Origin: a virus
Length of the DNA: 34,884 nt
Strand: one strand, 5' to 3'
Virus record (IMG/VR): IMGVR_UViG_3300032236_000163
Coordinates: 1-34,884 of that record
Positions within the stretch are counted from its first letter, which is position 1. Every line of letters starts with the position of its first letter. Made by a program: the position numbers and the translations under genes. Positions 4,171 to 32,417 of the stretch are shown here, one piece after another. The notes beneath the pieces were generated by a model. The model saw nothing but the letters and a program-made list of their open reading frames with translations, was not told the DNA's origin and did not search any database.

Positions 4171-4722
4171 ATGAGTAAATTTTTAGAACTACGCAAAATC
4201 AACGTAAACGAGCACACAGACCGCAAAGGTAAATTTACATACCTAAGTTGGGCTTGGGCAGTAGATCAGCTCCTACAGCTCGATCCTAGCGCTACATGGG
4301 ATTATAAAGATCCTGTCTATTTCGCTGAAACGCTAATGGTCTTTTGTTCCGTTACCGCTTTTGGTAAAACAATGACAGCGCAGCTTCCTGTTTTGAACCA
4401 CCAAAACAAAGCTATTCAAAATCCTAACGCAATGGATGTAAATACAGCTATGCAGCGTTGTTTAGCTAAAGCTATTGCGCTTCATGGAATTGGTCTGTAT
4501 ATCTATGCTGGAGAAGACGTTCCTGATGAAGATCCAGTAGACCTAACAGATCAAGCAGATATTTGGATTAAAGCAATCAACACAGCGAAAGACATCGATG
4601 AACTCAAAGTCATATACGGTAACGCCTATCACCAGCTCTCAAAAGACAAATCCGCAGTCGCTAAGATTTCCGCAGCCAAAGATGCCAAAAAGTCAGAATT
4701 GGCAACTCAAAGCGATGTTTGA
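4171..4722 (+). CDS. DUF1071 single-strand annealing protein (Sak-type)
   Basis: 183 residues. Residues about 24-140 match DUF1071: YLSWAWAVDQLLQLDPSA, PVYFAETLMVFCSVTAFGKT, LPVLNHQNKAI, then NTAMQRCLAKAIALHGIGLY followed by IYAGEDVP. This family belongs with the Rad52/Sak-like annealases that pair single strands during phage recombination. The C-terminal 45 residues are a Lys/Ala-rich tail. It stands next to a lambda-type exonuclease and an SSB-like protein, the normal set for exonuclease-annealase recombination. Start chosen at ATG 4171, with GGAG seven bases upstream. Confidence 0.85.
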   Translation: MSKFLELRKINVNEHTDRKGKFTYLSWAWAVDQLLQLDPSATWDYKDPVYFAETLMVFCSVTAFGKTMTAQLPVLNHQNKAIQNPNAMDVNTAMQRCLAKAIALHGIGLYIYAGEDVPDEDPVDLTDQADIWIKAINTAKDIDELKVIYGNAYHQLSKDKSAVAKISAAKDAKKSELATQSDV

Positions 4723-4754
4723 TGAAATCTTAAGAAAAGAAAAGGAAGCTCGTA

Positions 4755-4847
4755 ATGTTTAATTTATTAATAACTATTTTGGCAATTACTGGAGCTGTAT
4801 GTTGGATTTTTATGCTTGTCGTACTTTTTTATATTTGGACTGAATAA
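4755..4847 (+). CDS. Tiny membrane protein between annealase and exonuclease, 30 residues
   Basis: Begins MFNLLITILAITGAVCW and is almost entirely hydrophobic, so one membrane helix. AGGA lies eight bases before the ATG, and its TAA stop overlaps the ATG of the exonuclease gene as TAATG. The tidy coupling argues that it is translated. A membrane peptide inside a recombination operon is odd; it may serve only to couple translation. Confidence 0.55.
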   Translation: MFNLLITILAITGAVCWIFMLVVLFYIWTE

Positions 4848-5524
4848 TGACTACATTTACAACTGAAGATCGATTGGCAGCTTATGAACCTATTCCGTTT
4901 GCTGGAATGGTTGCAACTGTGCAACAAGGAACGGAAGAATGGCATGAACTGCGTAGAGGAAAGGTGACAGCTTCTAGAGTTGCTGACATACTTGCAAAGA
5001 CAAAATCAGGCGCTTCAGCTAGTCGAGGAAACTATCTGATTGAGCTTGCTTTGCAACGAGTTACAAAAGCCATAGAAGAATCTTACACCAATGAAGCAAT
5101 GCGACATGGAATCGAAACTGAACCACAAGCACGAGTTGCTTATGAAGTTGCTTCAGGCAATTTTGTCGATCAAGTCGCATTTATTGATCATCCTTCTATT
5201 TCTTGGTTTGGCTGCTCTCCTGATGGACTTGTTGGTAGTGACGGTCTTATCGAGATTAAATGTCCAAACTCTGCTACGCATTGGAGCTATGTAAAAGATG
5301 GAAAACCGCCTCAAAAATATATTATTCAGATGCAAGCTCAGATGGCAGTTACTGGTGCTAAATGGTGTGATTTTGTTAGCTTTGATCCAAGAATGCCTGA
5401 AAGAAGCAAATTATTAATAATTAATGTTCCTAGAGATCCTGAGTTTATTCTTTATATGGAAGCAGAAATTAGGCAGTTTTTAAATGAAGTAGAAGCAGAA
5501 GTTAAATTAATGGAGAGTAAATAA
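4847..5524 (+). CDS. YqaJ-type (lambda exonuclease-like) recombination nuclease
   Basis: 225 residues. EWHELRRGKVTASRVADIL at about 27-45 is the N-terminal YqaJ signature. The PD-(D/E)XK core follows: MRHGIETEPQARVAYE, then FGCSPDGLVG with the catalytic Asp, LIEIKCP with the Glu and Lys, and YIIQMQAQMAVTGAKWCDFV. It degrades one strand of linear duplex ends to give the 3' tails used by the annealing protein upstream. The start overlaps the preceding small gene, and the stop overlaps the SSB-like gene as TAATG. Length is normal for the family. Confidence 0.9.
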   Translation: MTTFTTEDRLAAYEPIPFAGMVATVQQGTEEWHELRRGKVTASRVADILAKTKSGASASRGNYLIELALQRVTKAIEESYTNEAMRHGIETEPQARVAYEVASGNFVDQVAFIDHPSISWFGCSPDGLVGSDGLIEIKCPNSATHWSYVKDGKPPQKYIIQMQAQMAVTGAKWCDFVSFDPRMPERSKLLIINVPRDPEFILYMEAEIRQFLNEVEAEVKLMESK

Positions 5525-5778
5525 TGTCAGTTAAATATTTTGTCAAAGCAGCAGTTTCGGAGTATAAAGATCAAACAGGAGCTGTAAAAAAGAAGTATCA
5601 GTCTATTGGCGTAGTGCTTGAAACCAAACATGGTTTGATGCTTAAGATTGAGAATTTGCCTTTATTCGCTATGAAAGAAGGAGCTATTTTTGCCTACCTG
5701 AATGTTCCTGAAGACAAACCAGCAGGAGCAGCTCCAGCAGCTAATTTAGCTGATATGGAGTCAGATATACCATTCTAA
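5524..5778 (+). CDS. Small SSB-like protein with DIPF tail
   Basis: 84 residues. The N-terminal 50 residues alternate short strands (VKYFVKAAVSEYKD, KKYQSIGVVLETKHG, GLMLKIENLPLF, GAIFAYLNVPE) as expected of a small OB-like fold. An Ala/Pro linker leads to the C-terminal MESDIPF, which closely resembles the acidic tip (DDDIPF) by which bacterial SSB recruits partner proteins. Its location directly after the exonuclease supports a single-strand DNA binding or accessory role. It is much shorter than true SSB (about 170 residues) and has no clear SSB signature, so the fold is inference and the tail is what is seen. Confidence 0.6.
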   Translation: MSVKYFVKAAVSEYKDQTGAVKKKYQSIGVVLETKHGLMLKIENLPLFAMKEGAIFAYLNVPEDKPAGAAPAANLADMESDIPF

Positions 5779-5787
5779 GGAGATGCT

Positions 5788-6000
5788 ATGACCGATCATG
5801 ATCATATTTGGACTACAGCAGGAACTGATATAGAAGAACGCTGGAGAGTTAAATACGGTTGGGTTAGACCGTCAGAGCTACCTGAATACCAAGCGAAATA
5901 CAAATACTTTCAGGAACTGCCTCTACGCAAACTTGACGATCAAGCCAAGCAGCAATATGAGGCAGCTTTGAAAAAAGCTAAAGTAGCAAGAGTGCGTTAA
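5788..6000 (+). CDS. Conserved-looking small protein, last gene of the rightward operon
   Basis: 70 residues, starting MTDHDHIWTTAGTDIEERWR, with WVRPSELPEYQAKYKYFQEL in the middle and a basic helical tail (KKAKVARVR). TAAGGAG lies five bases before the ATG. The EYQAKYKYFQELPLRK segment recurs in small phage proteins near recombination genes, but I cannot assign a role. Its stop overlaps the stop of the convergent leftward gene by four bases. Confidence 0.65.
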   Translation: MTDHDHIWTTAGTDIEERWRVKYGWVRPSELPEYQAKYKYFQELPLRKLDDQAKQQYEAALKKAKVARVR

Positions 6001-6218
6001 TACTTACGCATATTTGGAAGAGGAGCAGCCTTTTGGCTGTTTCCTTTTTCGGCTTTATGAGCCTTTTCCATAGGCAAATTAATATGTTTATCGAGCTTCT
6101 TTTCTAGTCGAACTAGCTCGTTATGCTCTTTTTTCTCATGCTCACGCTCAACAACGTAATGCGCTTTTGTTGTAGGTTTTGCTGGTTTGTGCTGCTTGAT
6201 AGTGAAATTTGTTGCCAT
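5997..6218 (-). CDS. Small basic protein at the end of the leftward operon
   Basis: 73 residues, very rich in Lys and His (KQHKPAKPTTKAHYVVERE, HEKKEHNELVRLEKKLDKH), with a predicted charged helix in the middle and a Pro/Lys tail. It is the last gene of the leftward late operon, following the endolysin by two bases. The rightward terminator hairpin lies inside its 3' end. It may bind nucleic acid because of its charge; nothing more can be said. Confidence 0.6.
   Translation of the reverse strand: MATNFTIKQHKPAKPTTKAHYVVEREHEKKEHNELVRLEKKLDKHINLPMEKAHKAEKGNSQKAAPLPNMRKY
6026..6049 (+). terminator. Rightward intrinsic terminator inside the convergent gene
   Basis: CAGCC-TTTT-GGCTG (6026-6039) is followed by TTTCCTTTTT in the + direction, 26 bases after the last rightward stop codon. 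It would end the early operon. In the minus direction there is no T-run, so leftward reading of the overlapping gene is not stopped. Confidence 0.65.
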
Positions 6219-6220
6219 TT

Positions 6221-6817
6221 TTAAGCTCCTAAAATATCCATAGCTTTATGGATTTTGTTGATTCTATCGTCTAAACCTAATGTACCGCCATTTATTCTTT
6301 TGGTCATGGTTTCCCAATCCTGATTATCTGCAAGAGAATTTAGATTCCTCTTATTGAAAAACCAACCAGCGCTCATACAAGCGTTTTGAGGCTCTAAAAG
6401 CAGCTCAGGAGCGTTTATTAGGTCTACGCCTATGGCATCACCACAAGTTTTATAGTTAGACCGCCCGGTCAGTTGTATAACGCCTCTGCCATGAAAACGC
6501 CAACCATCGCCATCTTCGGTATTTCCAAGGTCAGCTCTACCGCCATAGACCTTATTAGCGATCATCTCAGGATTATTGGCATATTTGTCAGCAGTAGCTT
6601 CATCAGGAAAACGACTATGCCAAGTAGCCATCAAGCCTTTGGCGCTGTAATGCAAGTTTTCTTCCAAGGTCTTAAAATTTCCTGACTCATGCTGACATTG
6701 ACCAATAAATGCAGCTTGGCGAGTTGGCGTATTAATTTCATACTTATCAAAAGTATTGTTTAAAGGATCTAGCCATTTAGCATCAATTCCTAGAGCTTCC
6801 AACTGATCATTCGTCAT
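6221..6817 (-). CDS. GH19-type endolysin
   Basis: 198 residues. It is a chitinase/lysozyme glycoside hydrolase family 19 protein: RQAAFIGQCQHESGNFKTLE carries the catalytic Glu region at about 34-53, followed by LHYSAKGLMATW, RADLGNTEDGDGWRFHGRG (second acidic region) with GVIQLTGRSNYK, and near the end MTKRINGGTLGLDDR. GH19 endolysins cut the glycan strand of Gram-negative peptidoglycan. There is no signal peptide, so release depends on a holin. The gene overlaps the upstream holin-like gene by 11 bases, the normal holin-lysin arrangement. Full length, no broken motifs. Confidence 0.92.
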   Translation of the reverse strand: MTNDQLEALGIDAKWLDPLNNTFDKYEINTPTRQAAFIGQCQHESGNFKTLEENLHYSAKGLMATWHSRFPDEATADKYANNPEMIANKVYGGRADLGNTEDGDGWRFHGRGVIQLTGRSNYKTCGDAIGVDLINAPELLLEPQNACMSAGWFFNKRNLNSLADNQDWETMTKRINGGTLGLDDRINKIHKAMDILGA

Positions 6818-7019
6818 CGCTATTTCCTATTTTTATACCAGTAATTAATCCAATAAATCCACCAACAATTGTTTGAAAAGCTGGCCCTATGATTTGAAAT
6901 ACTTTTTCGTCATCAACATTTGGATCAATAACTGCAAAAGCAAACATAGCAAGCATAGCAACTACTACACAAACTAATGACCAAGCAGCAATCACTAAAA
7001 TATGTTCTTTTTGGTTCAT
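6807..7019 (-). CDS. Holin-like membrane protein, two helices
   Basis: 70 residues. The first hydrophobic segment is at about 7-31 (ILVIAAWSLVCVVVAMLAMF), the second at about 43-64 (IIGPAFQTIVGGFIGLITGI), with short charged ends. Size, two membrane helices and direct overlap with the endolysin gene suggest a holin or antiholin. It also overlaps the 3TM holin gene upstream by ATGA (7019-7016), so the three are co-translated. Which of the two membrane proteins is the pore former cannot be told from sequence. Confidence 0.65.
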   Translation of the reverse strand: MNQKEHILVIAAWSLVCVVVAMLAMFAFAVIDPNVDDEKVFQIIGPAFQTIVGGFIGLITGIKIGNSDDE

Positions 7020-7423
7020 TTTGAAGCAACTCCTTGAACTTTCTCAAAAGTACGCAAACCACCCATACCAAGCATACCCATCATTAATTGCCATAAATTA
7101 TCATCAAGTCCAGGCAATGGAGGAATAACGATTCCAGCAATACCAGCAATAGTTCCTGCTAAAGGTCTTATTAAATATTGATAAGCCAAAGCTAAAGCGC
7201 ATACCCAACCAATAGCTGGTCGCCAACCTGATACAAATATAGATGAATTTGCAGCCTCAACTTTATTAATGTCAGTTTGAGCTGTCATCGTAGCAAGATC
7301 ACCACTTTGCTGAAGTTGCAATAATTTTAATTTTGCATCGGCAGCTTGAGCAGGATCAGGAAAAAAATGATCTATTAATTTACCGCCTAAATCTAAAGCT
7401 GCTGAAATTGGATCTAAAGACAT
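7016..7423 (-). CDS. 3TM-type holin
   Basis: 135 residues. Matches the 3TM holin family (GTA_holin_3TM type): MSLDPISAALDLGGKLIDHFFPDP at the start, a soluble helix (KLKLLQLQQSGDLATMTAQTDIN), SIFVSGWRPAIGWVCALALA as the hallmark WRP segment and first membrane helix, a second hydrophobic segment (LAGTIAGIAGIVIPPLPGL) and a third (LWQLMMGMLGMGGLRTFEK). Members are phage and gene-transfer-agent holins that permeabilise the inner membrane. AAGGA precedes the ATG. It lies two genes upstream of the endolysin. Confidence 0.85.
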   Translation of the reverse strand: MSLDPISAALDLGGKLIDHFFPDPAQAADAKLKLLQLQQSGDLATMTAQTDINKVEAANSSIFVSGWRPAIGWVCALALAYQYLIRPLAGTIAGIAGIVIPPLPGLDDNLWQLMMGMLGMGGLRTFEKVQGVASK

Positions 7424-7447
7424 GATGTTTTCCTTATGCTAAACAAA

Positions 7448-7531
7448 TTAATACGTTCCCAAAATTAAAGTTGCTGCAATAAGCCAAATAGACAAAAGTA
7501 CCAATAACCATACAAATCCTTCATTGTTCAT
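7448..7531 (-). CDS. Tiny membrane peptide of the lysis cassette, 27 residues
   Basis: Begins MNNEGFVWLLVLLSIWLIAA and is one hydrophobic helix with a short polar N-terminus. Its ATG overlaps the stop of the 150-residue coiled-coil gene as ATGA (7531-7528), which strongly suggests real coupling. It may be a lysis accessory or holin regulator; this is inferred only from position between membrane genes of the cassette. Confidence 0.55.
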   Translation of the reverse strand: MNNEGFVWLLVLLSIWLIAATLILGTY

Positions 7532-13774: not shown

Positions 13775-14095
13775 TTAATCCTTCCTACAAATCAAAACTT
13801 CGTCAATATGGTCTGCATCTGTTTCATTGGTTGCATGAATGCAGAACCAAACACAATCCTCTTTAGATAAAACCAAGTGCTGTAAACCAGCTTTAATTTC
13901 AATACAAGCAGGAGCTGTATAGTCAGTAGTTACACCTTCTACAGTTACGCTTACACTTCCTTTAGACAAAATACTTATATGACTGTAATTGTGTAAATGC
14001 GATCCTGCTACATATCCTGCTGGTATATGCATTTCTTTAGCATATAAACCATCAGAAAAATGATGCTTTTGGTTAAATAATTCGCCTACGTTCAT
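13775..14095 (-). CDS. Cupin-fold protein A
   Basis: 106 residues with a small single-domain cupin. Metal-site motif HLHNYSH with His33, His35 and His39 in GSHLHNYSHISILSKGSVSV, and the second-motif His near 73 (LQHLVLSKED). The end (CVWFCIHATNETDADHIDEV) completes the barrel. The protein shares the HxHxYSH motif with cupin B at 18543-18857, so the two are probably paralogues. It overlaps the 2-oxoglutarate oxygenase gene as TAATG, suggesting a joint role. Likely binds a divalent metal. Enzymatic dioxygenase activity or simple structural or assembly function cannot be separated. Confidence 0.75.
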   Translation of the reverse strand: MNVGELFNQKHHFSDGLYAKEMHIPAGYVAGSHLHNYSHISILSKGSVSVTVEGVTTDYTAPACIEIKAGLQHLVLSKEDCVWFCIHATNETDADHIDEVLICRKD

Positions 14096-14673
14096 TATTT
14101 CACCTTATCTGATCTTATCGTCACGATTAGCAAAATCATGTCTTCAGGAGAGTTATTGGTTACATTGTGAACAATACTGTTATCAAACCAATAAACATCA
14201 CCAATGGAAGGCACAATTTGACCATCAGGAAAGTTGAACGTAGCTCCTTGGTAGTTTTGGATAGGAATGAAATATTTTTCATAATATCCTGCGCTCCAAC
14301 CACTATCTGTATGAGGAAAAATTTGTTTTCCTGAAGGAATCTTAATAAGGATTACAGTTCCAAGTTCTTCACCTTCTACTAATGACATTACGTCAAAAAC
14401 AATAGGTCTTACTTGTGGAAGCTGATAATAGGCTTTCCACCAAACTGGTCTATGTTCTTTATTAAAATCCGATTCCGCATTGATTTGGTCGACATCGCCT
14501 AATTTGTCTTCAATACCGTTATATCTAACCCAAATATCTTTGGTATCTCGATGAGGAGAATCTCCTGTACAACGCTGATTGTATTGACCAAAAAGCGCTG
14601 GTTGCCTCCGCAAAGCTATTTGTAGAGGCATTACATTTAAACCACAAGCGATTTTATTGAAATATTCTGACAT
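14095..14673 (-). CDS. Asp/Asn beta-hydroxylase-like 2OG-Fe(II) oxygenase
   Basis: 192 residues. Contains the iron triad of 2-oxoglutarate oxygenases: His121 and Asp123 in FPHTDSGWSAGYYEKYFIPI, His169 in YWFDNSIVHNVTNNS, and Arg187 (LLIVTIRSD) to hold 2-oxoglutarate. The layout fits the aspartyl/asparaginyl beta-hydroxylase family. IWVRYNG and VWWKAYYQLPQ form the substrate-side N-terminal half. Such oxygenases are frequent in aquatic phages and can hydroxylate protein side chains. Lying in the tail operon, coupled to a cupin and next to tail genes, it may modify a virion protein; that is inference. All key residues are present, so it is probably active. Confidence 0.8.
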   Translation of the reverse strand: MSEYFNKIACGLNVMPLQIALRRQPALFGQYNQRCTGDSPHRDTKDIWVRYNGIEDKLGDVDQINAESDFNKEHRPVWWKAYYQLPQVRPIVFDVMSLVEGEELGTVILIKIPSGKQIFPHTDSGWSAGYYEKYFIPIQNYQGATFNFPDGQIVPSIGDVYWFDNSIVHNVTNNSPEDMILLIVTIRSDKVK

Positions 14674-23345: not shown

Positions 23346-24587
23346 TTAAGCTGCGATACGGCAAGCTAATTCAGGATACAAGTTTGCCCAACCATACAGA
23401 ACATCTAAACGAGTCGGAATGGAATCGTTATTTATGGTGTATTGACGAACTACACGCATTGACAGACCAATTTCTTTGTCAGAAGCACGACCAGCAAAAT
23501 GAACTCCTTCAGGAAGTTCCAGGTCAGCTACTGCTAATGTAAAGGCATTGCGATGCATCATGATGTTTTGTGGAGAAACTGCGCCTGTGTTGTTGAATGG
23601 AGTTACAACAGCAGTTGTGCTTGTAGAGCCAACAACTACGTTTTGGAACTGACCAGCAGTAATAACAGCAGGAGAAACTGTGATGTTAGTAGCTGAAGTA
23701 CCTACTGAAGTTGTAGACAATACAACGAAGTTACGCAACTTGTTAGAACCGTAAGCTGCACGATTCTGTGGGTTGGCTGCATAAACGCCAGCGATTGTGA
23801 ATGTGTCACCAGCATTCAATGTAGAAGCAGAAGATGCTTTGATTTGAATGGTAGATGAAGAAGCCCAACCTGAAGTCAAATAACCAACAGCAGCAGTTGT
23901 ATCAGCAGATAAAGTGTTACCTGAATAGCTACCGAATGTCTGTGCTACCACGTTTTGGTCAAGTTTCCAGTTAACGCCAGCAGAATCACGACCCATCAAG
24001 CCTTTACGATACTGTTCGCCAATTGCTTCTTGTGGAACGAACAAACCTTTCAAGCTGTCAACGATAGTTGCAGATGTGAATGGCTCAACGATGCATGATC
24101 TACGACCATCACGAGGAGCGCCTTCAGAGTCAAGGTAAGCACCAGCAGTCAGGTAAGTGATCAAACCAGTTGGAGGAGTACCAGCTACACCAACGATGTT
24201 TGCTGTGTTTGAAGCAGCTTGTTGCATACCATCACGATCAATCTTGTTGGCAATAGCAGCTACGGCTGGTTTCAATACACGATCAGAGAACATATCCAAG
24301 CTCAAAGCCAAGTCCTGGGTAGTAAATTGGGTATCCACATGGAACTGTGTTGACAAAGTTACAGGAACTGAAGTTTCGTTGAAGTCTTCTACGTTAAGCG
24401 CTGGGCCTGTAGTACCAATGAAACGACCAGGTTTTCTTACGTTAACGGTTGCGCCAATCTTGGCCCCAACAACAGCGAACTGATCATCATAATTACGATC
24501 AACTTCAGAAGTGAAAGTTAGTTCGTTTTCGAGAACCATAAGGGCCTCGTTAGTGATCTTGCTAATGGTTAATAAATTATTACTCAC
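23346..24587 (-). CDS. Major capsid (coat) protein, P22 gp5-type
   Basis: 413 residues, near P22 coat (430). It starts NNLLTISKITNEALMVLENE and has FTSEVDRNYDDQFAVVGAKI, RKPGRF, TQFHVDTQFTTQDLALSLDM, then IANKIDRDGMQQAA, all hallmarks of the P22 coat family (HK97 fold). A central region around 225-310 is Thr/Ser/Ala-rich and should correspond to the inserted domain. The C-terminus has MRVVRQYTINNDSIPTRLDV and YGWANLYPELACRIAA. The start is GTG at 24587, with AGGA about eight bases upstream. Encoded right after the scaffold gene as in P22. Confidence 0.92.
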   Translation of the reverse strand: MSNNLLTISKITNEALMVLENELTFTSEVDRNYDDQFAVVGAKIGATVNVRKPGRFIGTTGPALNVEDFNETSVPVTLSTQFHVDTQFTTQDLALSLDMFSDRVLKPAVAAIANKIDRDGMQQAASNTANIVGVAGTPPTGLITYLTAGAYLDSEGAPRDGRRSCIVEPFTSATIVDSLKGLFVPQEAIGEQYRKGLMGRDSAGVNWKLDQNVVAQTFGSYSGNTLSADTTAAVGYLTSGWASSSTIQIKASSASTLNAGDTFTIAGVYAANPQNRAAYGSNKLRNFVVLSTTSVGTSATNITVSPAVITAGQFQNVVVGSTSTTAVVTPFNNTGAVSPQNIMMHRNAFTLAVADLELPEGVHFAGRASDKEIGLSMRVVRQYTINNDSIPTRLDVLYGWANLYPELACRIAA

Positions 24588-24618: not shown

Positions 24619-25551
24619 TTACCTAATTCGACCAGCTCTACGAGCTTCTTTCCACGCTTGGTAACTTCCATGAAACTCACCATCTGAGCCTATAGGAGAT
24701 TCCATTGCGCTTCCAGTTCCTCTAATAGGACTAATTGGACTAGGCGCTTTTGACTGCCTAGCAACAGCTTTAGGTTTGGCTTCGACAGGAGCTTCTTTAC
24801 GCTCAAATCTAGCTTCCAATTTCCCAATCTCTTTCAAAGCCTTTGCAGTTGGCATTGCTGACAACTTGTTAGCGTAATCGTCATCTGATGCTAGGTGATA
24901 CAAGATTTCAGCTCCTGTATCGCTCTCTAGAATCGCATCTCTTACGGCATCACTTACTTGTACCGTACTAGAAGCAACCATTTCATCAAAATCAGGCAAT
25001 TCGGCTTTCGCTTTCTCAATTTTGTCGTTCCAAGCCTTTAGGACTTTGGATCGCTCTTCTTCAAGTTTGCGATTGACTTCTTGCTGATCACGCTCATACA
25101 AAGCCTTCTCGGTAGACCATTCTGCTAAAGCCTTCGCATATTCAAAGGCATCATCAAACTGATCTGCTCTCGGTTCTGCTCCAATCGGATCAACTTGTTT
25201 TGGTTGTGTTGACCGACCTTCGTATTCCTTAAGTCTAGCTTCCAGCGCTTCTTTCTCAGCTTGGGCTTTAGCAGCGTTTTCTTCTGCTTGTTTCCTTGCT
25301 TTAGTTAGCTCTGAAAACCGTTTTTCGAGTTTAGGATTTTGTTTCCGTTCTTCTGTTGCTTTCGTTTCAGGTTCATTCTCTTGTTCACTCTCACCTTCTG
25401 CTTCTTCAATCGGCTCTGCTTCTACAGGAGTTTCCTCAACTGTTTCAGCAGCCTCAACTGGAGCATCATCGGTAGCTAAACCAAGACGATTCATGTTCCA
25501 TTCAACTAAATTCTCACTTGTTACTACATTTCCTGCTTCACGATCTGACAT
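24619..25551 (-). CDS. Scaffolding protein, P22 gp8-like
   Basis: 310 residues (P22 gp8 is 303). Very acidic residues 30-75 (EAAETVEETPVEAEPIEEAE), then a coiled coil of Lys/Glu/Ala at about 75-115 (RFSELTKARKQAEENAAKAQ) and a helical region to 240. The C-terminus ends SYQAWKEARRAGRIR, a basic helix expected to dock on coat, as the P22 scaffold tail does. N-terminal NVVTSENLVEWNMNRLGLA resembles a short peptide in two neighbouring proteins (see findings). Immediately upstream of coat. Confidence 0.85.
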   Translation of the reverse strand: MSDREAGNVVTSENLVEWNMNRLGLATDDAPVEAAETVEETPVEAEPIEEAEGESEQENEPETKATEERKQNPKLEKRFSELTKARKQAEENAAKAQAEKEALEARLKEYEGRSTQPKQVDPIGAEPRADQFDDAFEYAKALAEWSTEKALYERDQQEVNRKLEEERSKVLKAWNDKIEKAKAELPDFDEMVASSTVQVSDAVRDAILESDTGAEILYHLASDDDYANKLSAMPTAKALKEIGKLEARFERKEAPVEAKPKAVARQSKAPSPISPIRGTGSAMESPIGSDGEFHGSYQAWKEARRAGRIR

Positions 25552-25640
25552 GAGTTTTCCTCAAGAATTAACCCATTGAACCCAATGGTAGGTAATACAT
25601 AAACAGTTTTACTACACTAAAAAATCAAGTGCAATATTAT

Positions 25641-25859
25641 TTAAGACATTCCAGCAATATTTGCTAATGAATTTCCAGTAGGCATTTGCTGTGGAGCTTG
25701 CTGTGAAGTTTGCTGCTGATCATCTTTAGGAGCAGCTTGCTTTTTAGGCAGCTCATACCATTCAGGTTTTGTATGTTCTTCGTCTTGATAATGATGTTCG
25801 TAATTATGGAATTGTTGCAAATAATCTTCCATTCCAAGACCGTTTTCTGATGTAGGCAT
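25641..25859 (-). CDS. Small acidic/Gln-rich protein in the head block
   Basis: 72 residues, low complexity: a His/Tyr/Glu-rich first half (EDYLQQFHNYEHHYQDEEHT) and a Gln/Pro-rich second half (KDDQQQTSQQAPQQMPTGNS) ending LANIAGMS. Starts with TAATG overlap to the GP88-like gene. It looks like a disordered linker or scaffold accessory. A 90-base gap to the scaffold start follows, with a short dyad CCATTG-AACC-CAATGG at about 25573-25588. Confidence 0.55.
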   Translation of the reverse strand: MPTSENGLGMEDYLQQFHNYEHHYQDEEHTKPEWYELPKKQAAPKDDQQQTSQQAPQQMPTGNSLANIAGMS

Positions 25860-27043
25860 TATTTCTCCACTTCTCCATTATTGTTGAGAATGATATTTCC
25901 ACGCTTTTGCTTGGCAATTCTGACTTCTTTATTGGTAGCAATAGGATTACCGTCTTCATCCTTAACTTGCTTACCGCCTTCCATTTTAAACTGTGGTTCG
26001 TAATGAACAAAGAAGCCATTAGAGTTTTTAGCTGCTGTTTTATCGCCATGAGTTGCAGCTTTACGAGCTAGACCGACAATTACGCCTTTTTCATCCAAAG
26101 GTCTAAAATCATGCTCGTCACCACTAATTACTTTGTATTTCTTACCAGTTTCTTCGTCATGAACGATTTCAGGAATGGCTTTGGAATGACTAAATGCCAT
26201 CGCCACGTTCTGACCTTGTTCCAGCTTATTACGCATGGAATGCCAGTTTTGATGCTCATTATCAATATCAACCTTAACGCCATTGTGTCCTGCTGGTTGG
26301 CTTACGCCTGTAGAGCTGTAGGTTAAATGGTGATTAGGAGCAACTGGTTTGCTATTGTTCTTGGTGTAATCGTAAAAAGTCACGTCAGGATGAGCTTCCA
26401 TCAACGATTGGAACATTTTAGGATGCAAGTCAGACAGTACGTTTAAGCGTACTCCTAAGTGATTTCCTTCATATTCTGCCAATGTTTTAGCTACTTGGAT
26501 CTGATCGTATAAGCGAGTTGCAAATTCACGAGGATTTCGCAGCAATGCCTGAGTTTTTTTAAAGTTTGCGAGCCTTGGGCCGAGCATAGCTTCAAGATCA
26601 CGACCACCACCAAATTGGAAGTAACCACCTGAAGTCTTTCCTAGACATTCCTTTTTGCAAGACTTGGAATTAGGACAAGTGCTGAATTTACCTTCCTCAT
26701 AAGCAGGAGAAAGCGATAAACCAGTAGTTTCCACGCCTCTTCCATCAGGCATTTCTACTTCACCTTTACCGCCAGCCTTTTGGAGCTTACGGTTTTGGCT
26801 TAATAAATCGATGACTTTGCCTTCTTTATTGCGACCAATATGCGATGCCATTACTTCAGCAGCCTTCTTACTGTTCGCTACACGCTCTTTAGTTGGTAAT
26901 GACCTATGGTAAGCAATAGCTGCATCAAATTCACGCTTCAGATCGTTGATATTAGGCTGTGGATGCTGTTTTTGCAGCAATCCACGCTTCTCCATCTCTT
27001 GACGGTTGAACTCTTCTCTATTGGCGCTGGTTACGGTAGCCAT
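25859..27043 (-). CDS. GP88/DUF7227-like protein with Cys cluster
   Basis: 394 residues. Pattern resembles the phage GP88-type family: LSPAYEEGKFSTCPNSKSCK then KECLG with Cys123, Cys129 and Cys133, a GG-rich loop, GVRLNVLSDLHPKMFQSLME at about 197-216, FYDYTKNN at about 223-230, HHLTYSSTGVSQ at about 238-249, then VKVDIDNEHQNWHSMRNKLE and a regular alpha/beta C-terminal half. The Cys spacing (C-x5-C-x3-C) suggests bound metal or an iron-sulfur cluster. Biochemical activity of the family is not known to me. It sits between portal and scaffold genes, an odd place for an enzyme. Its first residues contain TSANREEFNR, shared with neighbours. Confidence 0.65.
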   Translation of the reverse strand: MATVTSANREEFNRQEMEKRGLLQKQHPQPNINDLKREFDAAIAYHRSLPTKERVANSKKAAEVMASHIGRNKEGKVIDLLSQNRKLQKAGGKGEVEMPDGRGVETTGLSLSPAYEEGKFSTCPNSKSCKKECLGKTSGGYFQFGGGRDLEAMLGPRLANFKKTQALLRNPREFATRLYDQIQVAKTLAEYEGNHLGVRLNVLSDLHPKMFQSLMEAHPDVTFYDYTKNNSKPVAPNHHLTYSSTGVSQPAGHNGVKVDIDNEHQNWHSMRNKLEQGQNVAMAFSHSKAIPEIVHDEETGKKYKVISGDEHDFRPLDEKGVIVGLARKAATHGDKTAAKNSNGFFVHYEPQFKMEGGKQVKDEDGNPIATNKEVRIAKQKRGNIILNNNGEVEK

Positions 27044-27348
27044 TATTTTTTCTTATTAAGAGCTTTTTTAATGAATTCTTCACGATTTTCTGAAGTCACC
27101 ACAGAACGACTAGGTTTCTCCATTTTTTCACGTTTTTTTGCACGTTCTTCGTAAGCCATTTTTGCTGTATCAAAGGCATCTTCCTTGTCATCACCATGAT
27201 AGGACACAGGCCCTTCGCCCATATGTTTGCCATTTTCATAATGGTGAACTTGATACTCTTCCCATTCCTTGTTGTGCCTTACTTCTGCACGATGAGGCTC
27301 ATCACCAAATTTCTTGATAAGTCTTGTTCCTAGTGTTGGACTTTTCAT
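27043..27348 (-). CDS. Small charged protein between portal and GP88-like gene
   Basis: 101 residues starting MKSPTLGTRLIKKFGDEPHR. Middle HNKEWEEYQVHHYENGKHMG with a repeated charged beta pattern (like a small two-stranded domain), then a basic helix (AYEERAKKREKMEKPSRS) and the tail VVTSENREEFIKKALNKKK. The tail closely resembles the N-termini of the GP88-like protein and the scaffold. ATGA overlap with portal and TAATG with the next gene. Function unknown; the tail suggests interaction with a shared head partner. Confidence 0.62.
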   Translation of the reverse strand: MKSPTLGTRLIKKFGDEPHRAEVRHNKEWEEYQVHHYENGKHMGEGPVSYHGDDKEDAFDTAKMAYEERAKKREKMEKPSRSVVTSENREEFIKKALNKKK

Positions 27349-29459
27349 ATTGCTCTTTCTTCGGTTTCAATTGCAGCTCCTCTACGAGCTTGGGAGTCTA
27401 TTTGCGCCAAAAGCATTGCAAATTGACCTTTAATGTACTCAATATCGATTTGAGTTTGAGTTTTAACTGCTGTATCTTCTGCTGTAACTTGAACTCTAGC
27501 ATCTGTATCTCTCCGCTTGGTTTCGTTGGACATTTCAATATCATGCGCTCTAGCTGTAACTTCCATGAGCTTGCGTTTGGTTTCAGCTTCTTGCTTAACG
27601 CCTTCAATATCTTGACGTTGCTTGATCATCATCTGTAGCTGCTGAACTTGTTGCTGTAATTGCTGAACTTGAGCTGCGCCTTGCTTGAGCTGCATCTGAA
27701 CTTGTGGAGGAACATCTGACTTATCGTCAATTTGTGCCATAGGATTGACTGCTGCCAATCGATCCGCAATGATGTCTGCGCCAGGGAAGTCCATATTACG
27801 GAAGATTAAGTCACCAGCTTGCTGCATCAGATTAGGATCAGCAGTTAGCAATGTCATCATTGAGTCGACTGCTTCTTGGCGCTTGGAGTTGTAGCCTGGT
27901 CCTGTTTCCATCACAACATCGTATTTGCCAACAGAAACATCGTTCAGAATTTTCTCAACACCTTGTTCGTCAGTTGAACGCTGGTTCAACGTCACTAGCT
28001 CAGGTTTTCCGTCATCACCAATAATTCGCAATACACGCTCTGTATCGTAAATCTTAGGAACAAGATCCAAAATGATGCGACCAGTATAGGCAATGGAGCG
28101 AGTCAAGTTATCGTAATAATGGTAGTTAACCATATCGATTTGCTGCTGCTGACCAGCTAATGCTTTGCCTGAGATATTGCCTTGAGGCAGCTCTGACGGA
28201 TCAAAGATACCAACTACAGCTTGCAAGTCAGCGCTCATACCTTGAAGCGCAGCCATTACTCCTGCTGGAGGAGGCTCAGGTTGCATACGCTGTGGAGGAG
28301 GCGCATCTTTACCGCTAATGTCTGTTTGCTTATAGGTCAAATACGCCATTGACTTGACGTTTGCCATTGCCCAATCATTTTCATGACCTTCATCTTGACC
28401 TTCTGCCATAATCCACTTGGCTTTAGGAGCAAGAGCTACAGACTCGGTAAGGCTGGTTGCCCAATAGTTATACATACGCTGTGGATCTTTTGCCATACGC
28501 ACAATACCAAATTTCTTATGCTTAGAATCGATAATGGCTTGCTGACCATACACAGGAACGATTGGAATGTATTTACCAGCCCAAATACCTTCTTCAAGGA
28601 TTTGCATAGCTGTTAGCTTGCACCAATGAATTTCCTTCTTATAAGAATCTCTGCGATTGACTTCAAAAATACCAGCCAACTTCATCATTTCAGCATCAGG
28701 AAGCTCATCTTCATAAACGCTTGTACCGTCAGACAATAGAACCAATTTGGTCTTTTTCTTTACGGTATAGAAGTATTCAGCAATACGAATATCTTCCTTC
28801 ATTACCCATTCGTTGTTGGTGTCACCAGTTCCACGAGCACTAAAACCTTGATCAATCTCTGCCCAAGGATACATAGTCTTAAAGTTCTTTTTGCTTACGA
28901 CTGTAGTGATCAAAGCCTTCTCAGCATCTGAACCATCAGGAAGTTGTGAATTAGGATCGAAATAGACTGTAAATGGATTCTCAATAGGCTTGATGTAGAT
29001 TTCTTGCTCAAAGCTGTCAGGAGATGAATAATCGGTAGTGATACGCCAATATCCCCAACCCATTGTTACTGCGTATTTGAAAGCCTCATCATAAGCATGA
29101 TCGGCATTGGATTGAACTTCAATGTGACGGCAAACGCCTGTAAGGATTTCAGCAAGTTTTGCATCAGATTCGTTGTTCATTCCATGAACTTTAATTCTCG
29201 GTCTTTGCTGGCGCTGCTGGTTACATATTTGACTGATATAAGCTGATAGCTTATTAATGGTTAAACAAGGTCTTGCTTCTAAGTTGCGACTGTTTTGCGT
29301 TTCAACTGGCCACTGATCACCACCAATTCCAAATCTGACATCATCAAGAGCTTCTGCTCGATTGTTTGAGTCAGCATCGCCACATAGTCGGAGAAACTGT
29401 TTAGCTTCTTCAATACGACCATCATTTTCCATGTCATTGATGCTATCGTAATCTGCCAT
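27345..29459 (-). CDS. Portal protein, P22 gp1-type
   Basis: 704 residues (P22 portal 725). Family features include RFGIGGDQWPVETQNSRNLE, ARPCLTINKLSAYISQICNQ, QRPRIKV and YAVTMGWGYWRITTDYSSPD in the first third; VYFDPNSQ and YPWAEIDQGF follow; later GIVRMAKDPQRMYNYWATS, ISGKALAGQQQQIDMVNYH and VVMETGPGYNSKRQEAVDSM (wing/stem region). The C-terminal 110 residues form a Gln-rich coiled coil (QGAAQVQQLQQQVQQLQMMI), likely the helical barrel as in P22. Forms the dodecameric DNA gate bound by terminase and later by gp4. Three bases after the TerL stop. Confidence 0.93.
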   Translation of the reverse strand: MADYDSINDMENDGRIEEAKQFLRLCGDADSNNRAEALDDVRFGIGGDQWPVETQNSRNLEARPCLTINKLSAYISQICNQQRQQRPRIKVHGMNNESDAKLAEILTGVCRHIEVQSNADHAYDEAFKYAVTMGWGYWRITTDYSSPDSFEQEIYIKPIENPFTVYFDPNSQLPDGSDAEKALITTVVSKKNFKTMYPWAEIDQGFSARGTGDTNNEWVMKEDIRIAEYFYTVKKKTKLVLLSDGTSVYEDELPDAEMMKLAGIFEVNRRDSYKKEIHWCKLTAMQILEEGIWAGKYIPIVPVYGQQAIIDSKHKKFGIVRMAKDPQRMYNYWATSLTESVALAPKAKWIMAEGQDEGHENDWAMANVKSMAYLTYKQTDISGKDAPPPQRMQPEPPPAGVMAALQGMSADLQAVVGIFDPSELPQGNISGKALAGQQQQIDMVNYHYYDNLTRSIAYTGRIILDLVPKIYDTERVLRIIGDDGKPELVTLNQRSTDEQGVEKILNDVSVGKYDVVMETGPGYNSKRQEAVDSMMTLLTADPNLMQQAGDLIFRNMDFPGADIIADRLAAVNPMAQIDDKSDVPPQVQMQLKQGAAQVQQLQQQVQQLQMMIKQRQDIEGVKQEAETKRKLMEVTARAHDIEMSNETKRRDTDARVQVTAEDTAVKTQTQIDIEYIKGQFAMLLAQIDSQARRGAAIETEERAI
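27973..27990. repeat. Inverted repeat of the iteron core inside portal gene
   Basis: GTTGAAC (27973-27979) and GTTCAAC (27984-27990) form a perfect 7-bp inverted repeat with a 4-base centre. It is the same 7-mer as the iteron-like array at 2083-2303 but in inverted form. Could be coincidence; the coding strand reads LNQRST here. Confidence 0.6.
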
Positions 29460-31820: not shown

Positions 31821-32110
31821 TACTTTTTTGCAGTCTTTGCAGATTCTTTGAACGCTTTAGCAGTAGGAGCGCCTTTAGTACCAACTTTACGCATTTTCTC
31901 TACTGGTTTACCTTCAGCTTTTTCTTTTTTAATGCGCTCTTGTTTAGCATGAATATTTGCATATAAACCATTTTTTGCCATTTCTTTACTCCTAGTCGTA
32001 GCTTTTTTCAAAGCTGGTTTAGTTTTGACTACTGGAAAATCAGGAACTTTATTAGCTTCTGAATAATTTTGAGCTTCAGATTTAAACCAATTTAATATTT
32101 TCTTAAGCAT
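31820..32110 (-). CDS. Small Lys-rich protein with GLYANIHAK motif
   Basis: 96 residues from the ATG at 32110, which is preceded by GGAGGAG at ideal spacing. N-terminal MLKKILNWFKSEAQNYSEAN is an amphipathic helix. The C-terminal 55 residues (AKNGLYANIHAKQERIKKEK) match short phage proteins with MxKxGLYANIxxKR. Both parts are strongly basic. Its start overlaps the end of the GroES-like gene by 8 bases. Confidence 0.65.
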   Translation of the reverse strand: MLKKILNWFKSEAQNYSEANKVPDFPVVKTKPALKKATTRSKEMAKNGLYANIHAKQERIKKEKAEGKPVEKMRKVGTKGAPTAKAFKESAKTAKK

Positions 32111-32417
32111 TTTGCTCCTCCTGCATGAAGCAGACATCTTGCCAGCTCATGATTAGATAACGCTCATTATCTTCGAAATATTCAGTAAATTTCAAATATT
32201 CGTCTTTTTTGTCTTTTGCCATAGTTCCGAAACGAACAAAAGCTCCGACCTCTACAGGCATTACTTCACGTCTTCCATTCGGCAATTTCTTACCAGTTCC
32301 AACAGCAACAACAGTTCCCATATTGTCAACTTCATCCATAACTACTTGAATTAATTGACTTTTTACACGTTCAATTGGTTTTACAACGATTTTATCGCCT
32401 AGTGGTTTTAAGTTCAT
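32103..32417 (-). CDS. GroES-like co-chaperonin
   Basis: 104 residues. Begins MNLKPLGDKIVVKPIERVKS, which is the GroES start (KPLxDxxxVKP), followed by the mobile-loop region, then GTVVAVGTGKKLPNG and VMPVEVGAFVRFGTMAKD, the second GroES barrel half. LIMSWQDVCFM occupies the C-terminal strand. The GGIVL of the bacterial mobile loop is replaced by a QLIQVV-like sequence, so GroEL contact may be altered. A phage GroES could help fold coat or other proteins with host GroEL, as T4 gp31 does. Encoded just upstream of the terminase block; TAATG-coupled to the preceding gene. Confidence 0.82.
   Translation of the reverse strand: MNLKPLGDKIVVKPIERVKSQLIQVVMDEVDNMGTVVAVGTGKKLPNGRREVMPVEVGAFVRFGTMAKDKKDEYLKFTEYFEDNERYLIMSWQDVCFMQEEQNA

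Follow-up and report, generated by a model that had tools for sequence, protein, structure and literature searches.

A short peptide of the form V-T-S-x-N-x-x-E-[FWY]-x4-[LM] is shared by the scaffolding protein of a P22-like podovirus and by two otherwise unrelated proteins encoded beside it, and the same tag recurs in other phages on what amounts to 27 unrelated protein families in addition to the scaffold. A sequence-only reading had drawn attention to the peptide in the three proteins of this one phage and proposed it as a possible capsid-targeting tag; the shared tag is confirmed, its extent is larger than first noted, and the proposal is supported. Judging from sequence comparison, we think that the tag is probably a portable procapsid-incorporation signal, which would mimic the docking peptide of the scaffold and load virion-delivered proteins into the head. 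This reading is supported by the restriction of the tag to the head block, the unrelatedness of the families that carry it, its varied position within them, the small size and basic character of the carriers, and the matches of carriers to large portal-adjacent proteins.

The window (the whole stretch of DNA analysed, 34.9 kb) is the record of a P22-like podovirus: it carries the P22 portal and coat families with a scaffold between them. The head module lies on the minus strand in the order terminase, portal, 101-aa protein, GP88 protein, 72-aa protein, scaffold, coat. The block is bordered upstream by the P22-like portal protein (27345..29459, minus strand; PF16510, 4.9e-180) and downstream by the P22-like coat protein (23346..24587, minus strand; PF11651, 1.4e-33), next to which lies the gene for the head scaffolding protein (24619..25551, minus strand; phrog_8865, 3.3e-42). 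The first of the two non-scaffold carriers, p101, is a 101-aa protein of unknown function (27043..27348, minus strand; phrog_7884). The second is a 394-aa protein that belongs to the GP88 family, as judged by a profile match over the domain (25859..27043, minus strand; PF17338, 6.7e-20, 72 bits against a cut-off of 24), and has a TIM-barrel-like predicted fold. Adjoining the carriers is an untagged 72-aa protein (25641..25859, minus strand), the family of which is a partner gene of GP88 in several lineages. Elsewhere, the window encodes a GroES-like co-chaperonin (32103-32417; PF00166, 4.7e-9), and genes for a cupin (PF07883) and an Asp/Asn beta-hydroxylase-like protein (PF05118) adjoin the predicted ejection-protein genes (13775-14673).

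The tag occupies residues 84-99 at the C-terminus of p101 (VTSENREEFIKKALNK; 27052..27099), residues 4-19 at the N-terminus of the GP88-domain protein (VTSANREEFNRQEMEK; 26987..27034) and residues 10-25 in the N-terminal part of the scaffolding protein (VTSENLVEWNMNRLGL; 25477..25524), in each case on the minus strand. All three thus fall within positions 25460-27110, where the sequence-only reading had placed them, and the gene order agrees with its statement that the three genes lie between portal and coat. In a position-weight model built solely from other phages, with the window excluded, the tags of p101, GP88 and scaffold score 38.5, 34.9 and 29.9 bits, respectively, as compared to 6.2 bits for the next-best gene among the 58 ORFs of the window and 11.0 bits for the best score in 20 shuffled proteomes; a chance origin of the three tags is rejected on these numbers. 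Where the tags agree in residue, their codons differ at 5/8, 4/6 and 3/5 positions in the three pairings, and since this is over half of the codons, a recent DNA repeat or duplication as the source of the shared peptide is ruled out. We also considered the 72-aa protein as a fourth carrier and rejected it, its MPTSEN start being outside the pattern and the conserved N-terminus of its family being different. The predicted ejection proteins of the window are untagged by the same model, so the tag does not mark internal proteins in general.

Scanning viral contigs at the DNA level for VTSENxxEF and VTSENxxEW, which yields a motif-selected sample, returned 161 contigs, the window included, that carry P22-like head genes together with the tag. 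The tagged genes shown among them lie between portal and coat, except for one gene located between TerL and portal in contig L068. A further 15 contigs have a motif match and no head genes; these matches are mostly mid-protein, lower in score and in unrelated families, and were used as background. Because the motif scans select for the motif, we took a second, tag-blind sample of public contigs gathered by scaffold body search alone. Here, the tag is present in 63/63 distinct full-length scaffolds and in 24/29 genes between portal and scaffold, vs 3/340 genes elsewhere. Of these three, one is a cut-off scaffold, one a p101 gene with its upstream portal beyond the contig end and one a homologue of the L068 TerL-portal gene. 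The Fisher p of 1e-29 for this enrichment is inflated by the relatedness of the phages, and the family count is therefore the safer measure. A degenerate DNA pattern for the tag gave 29 matches in 24 long related records (0 for the reversed-pattern control), at one site per record or at two sites 0.3-1.6 kb apart; two of the 24 records have no match because of variant residues. Used as tblastn queries, short tag peptides matched only two GenBank records, both of them scaffolds. As for whether the motif is equally common in non-head proteins, it is not: across the 161 head-gene contigs and 24 long records the tag occurs only in the portal-coat block, apart from rare cases between TerL and portal. 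Nearly all of these data are metagenomic contigs, many of them related, and the gene calls are mechanical.

Such placement could mean that the tag docks to the portal, and not to coat or scaffold, and concentrates its carriers at the portal vertex. While tagged genes do directly follow the portal gene, and one tagged family (L068 and L308) sits between TerL and portal, gene order by itself is a weak argument, and incorporation of the ejection proteins in P22 requires the scaffold, not the portal (PMC8402733); we consider portal docking improbable. Many phages have a tagged scaffold and no cargo gene, so the first role of the tag lies in the scaffold.

Once the tag is masked, the non-scaffold carriers constitute 27 unrelated families (of 30 components, L119, L184 and L278 were discounted as background, coming from contigs that lack head genes). 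Most families have the tag at the N-terminus; the p101 family and L304 have it at the C-terminus, and in the L079/L141 family it is internal. The carriers have a median length of 125 aa and are basic, with a median pI of 9.2 vs 5.5 for 268 genes of the same size. Recognised domains are GP88, GNAT (L273, PF13508, 1e-6) and ASCH (L207, PF04266, 9e-5), and the window carriers are single-domain proteins; a few carriers are only 56-80 aa long and have no recognised domain. Tags of some GP88 relatives (L004, L005) are degenerate, and in three homologues of a tagged family the tag is no more than a doubtful variant. In four contigs (L312:2093-2284, L317:528-716, L337:2423-2623 and L358:6815-7006), homologues of a tagged family start with MKKEDHAAYVSKELSKK or similar, which may be a strongly diverged tag, and the body of a 144-aa protein that ends in the tag (L304:1687-2121) is ADP-ribosyltransferase-like by eye, with no Pfam match.

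Could the tagged small proteins be assembly factors instead, competing with scaffold docking or modulating it – in the control of capsid size or of scaffold release, for example – and then leaving the head? The presence of the peptide on the scaffold and the 56-80-aa carriers would fit such a role, but not the interchange at the locus of 27 unrelated families, including GP88 and the enzyme-like GNAT and ASCH domains, nor the many relatives that do without any such gene; the basic character of the carriers is, furthermore, as expected of DNA-associated internal proteins. We regard assembly factors as unlikely.

Scaffold tags mostly read VVTSENLAEF..[KR]LGLA and cargo tags VTSEN[RK]xEF....[LM], with R/K in the latter where scaffold tags have mostly L/S/Q/A. 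Since the cargo tags have a consensus of their own that is shared from phage to phage, they form a subclass instead of repeating the tag of the scaffold next to them; the two kinds of tag may not be equivalent. Among scaffolds, 61/61 retain the core T-S-x-N-x-x-x-[FW], and in pairwise comparison the mean amino-acid change of the whole 17-residue tag is below that of the linker. By nonsynonymous/synonymous ratio, however, the tag does not fall below the scaffold body, as several of its positions vary freely and the core alone is invariant. The cargo subclass and the core bear on the least likely of the rival explanations, in which partial duplication of the start of the scaffold gene left the peptides behind as inert relics. 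Although the carriers do adjoin that gene, the cross-phage cargo subclass (R/K after TSxN), the differing codons, the C-terminal and internal tag locations and the invariant core all speak against inert relics, to which we give almost no credence.

The C-terminal and internal positions also disfavour a processing or turnover signal, i.e. a host degron or protease site by which the scaffold would be cleared and the small proteins affected too. Scaffolds must exit the procapsid, and the targeting peptide of T4 is also a cleaved propeptide (PMC5694885), which lends this idea some appeal; however, there is no Peptidase_S78 match in the window record while control genomes were matched, and degradation would leave the swapping basic proteins beside the scaffold unexplained. 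More broadly, no prohead protease was found in searches for the S78 and S77 families, the latter search having been run without a working control. A processing signal is, in our opinion, highly improbable.

In an AlphaFold model of the L343 scaffold+coat read-through, the tag is predicted as a short helix (residues 15-22, pLDDT ~62) between low-confidence stretches, and is followed by a confident helical scaffold body flanked by low-confidence linkers. The mean pLDDT of this model is 51, and its coat part, predicted with 33 similar sequences, is too poor to place the docking of the tag. The model of the GP88 protein is good (pLDDT 87), with the tag as a low-confidence tail (pLDDT 57-68). The TIM-barrel-like domain predicted for this protein (25859-27043) has an invariant or near-invariant C-x5-C-x3-C; a fold search returned no PDB match at E < 0.001, and while radical-SAM barrels (QueE, viperin, TYW1) came top in VIA-align, their Z of only ~5 is within the range of common arrangements, and we rejected an assignment of GP88 function by fold.

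Returning to the incorporation signal, we infer docking, encapsidation and delivery of the tagged proteins as follows. The scaffold tag would act as a short helix for docking, carried on a flexible tail, and small cargo proteins with a variant of the tag would bind to a similar site within the procapsid during assembly, either on the coat inner face or on the scaffold core. The cargo would be enclosed at shell closure, remain with the DNA and be delivered at infection. Counting against this reading are the untagged ejection proteins predicted in the window, the phages that have a tagged scaffold but no cargo gene, the R/K difference between cargo and scaffold tags, and the degenerate or doubtful tags of some relatives of the carriers. 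By our estimate, the coat is the foremost, if tentative, candidate for the partner of the tag, the scaffold body a somewhat less plausible one and the portal a doubtful one.

The bodies of GP88, ASCH (L207), GNAT (L273), p101 and L324 match domains of untagged proteins of 657-1097 aa (E 1e-145 to 3e-8), which are encoded near the portal in a different, tag-less lineage; the body of p101 also forms one segment of a 657-aa protein from another lineage of phages. In outgroup P22-like phages the tag is absent and there is mostly no gene between portal and scaffold; of those inspected, L151 has a single untagged gene there. Partial forms of the tag, VVTSESLMQQLTG and VVTSENLMQHITG, are present in Xanthomonas phage PBR31 and in Paraburkholderia prophages, where no gene intervenes between portal and scaffold. 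It is conceivable, although we would not yet favour it, that the tag amounts to a scaffold-derived encapsidation code, whereby the tagged lineage loads rapidly exchanged effectors via the docking peptide of its scaffold and other lineages load the same domains by unrelated means, that is, as large fused proteins and possibly through another terminal motif. If so, virion-delivered effectors would be recognisable in the sequences of uncultured phages.

The GP88 loci of another lineage (L028, L029, L031, L033, L043, L044, L047, L056 and others) have a different recurring N-terminal peptide, e.g. DIVNKALSLT or KAIRRALMIA, and proteins adjoining these GP88 proteins have similar C-termini, HAVDKALRLTVGM and PIVKRALELL; this pattern, which was defined after looking, is ~6x denser at protein ends than inside. 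Two annotations also deserve comment. In L150 (MW202557.1, record 1615-2538) a hypothetical protein is annotated on the minus strand, and the scaffold reads on the opposite strand (locus 4704-5555); in L144 (MW202674.1, locus 5934-7449) the P22 coat is annotated as two CDSs with a small gene between them, possibly reflecting an insertion, a frameshift or an annotation error.

Which phage proteins travel in the virion is usually learned phage by phage via mass spectrometry. If our explanation is true, a peptide marker would list candidate injected proteins from metagenomes of uncultured phages, and foreign proteins could be loaded into P22-like shells by means of the tag, as a compact handle of natural origin. 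A tag shared with the scaffold also yields a testable model of cargo selection in P22-like heads; we found no earlier description of a scaffold-shared cargo motif in the open-access literature searched.

Among known systems, encapsulins use short cargo-loading peptides to direct unrelated cargo into an HK97-fold shell. The likeness drawn here is one of working, and encapsulins, unlike the tagged phages, are bacterial compartments without a scaffold. In phage P1, no more than 30 aa from the N-terminus of DarB suffice to load a reporter into the capsid; among the Dar proteins, that study saw no consensus (PMC9024508), whereas here one pattern is common to many families and the scaffold. Incorporation of the P22 ejection proteins gp7, gp16 and gp20 depends on the scaffold, and that of gp7 and gp20 also on their N-terminal part (PMC8402733); the proposed signal agrees with this scaffold dependence. 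The head of the window phage is likewise P22-like, but ejection proteins form a DNA conduit and are encoded elsewhere, and the predicted ones of the window are untagged.

Polyvalent proteins, as described by Iyer et al. 2017, are multidomain proteins predicted to be packaged and injected (PMC5512222). Our carriers resemble them in that GP88, ASCH, GNAT and other carrier bodies are domains of large untagged portal-adjacent proteins in another lineage, and in that the window carriers are encoded beside virion genes, between portal and coat; they differ in that every domain stands alone as a small tagged protein, and is not one of several effectors on a single polypeptide. In T4, the CTS, a short conserved peptide on IPI, IPII, IPIII and Alt, directs diverse internal proteins to the inside of the scaffolding core, and this cargo makes up a variable anti-host set (PMC3012670, PMC5694885). 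The tag has no sequence similarity to the CTS, the N-terminal 30 residues of ipII and ipIII scoring -15 and -18 in the tag model, below the shuffled maxima. Both systems attach a short common peptide to otherwise unrelated head-region proteins, but in ours the peptide spans 27 families, can be C-terminal or internal, and is carried by the scaffold itself.
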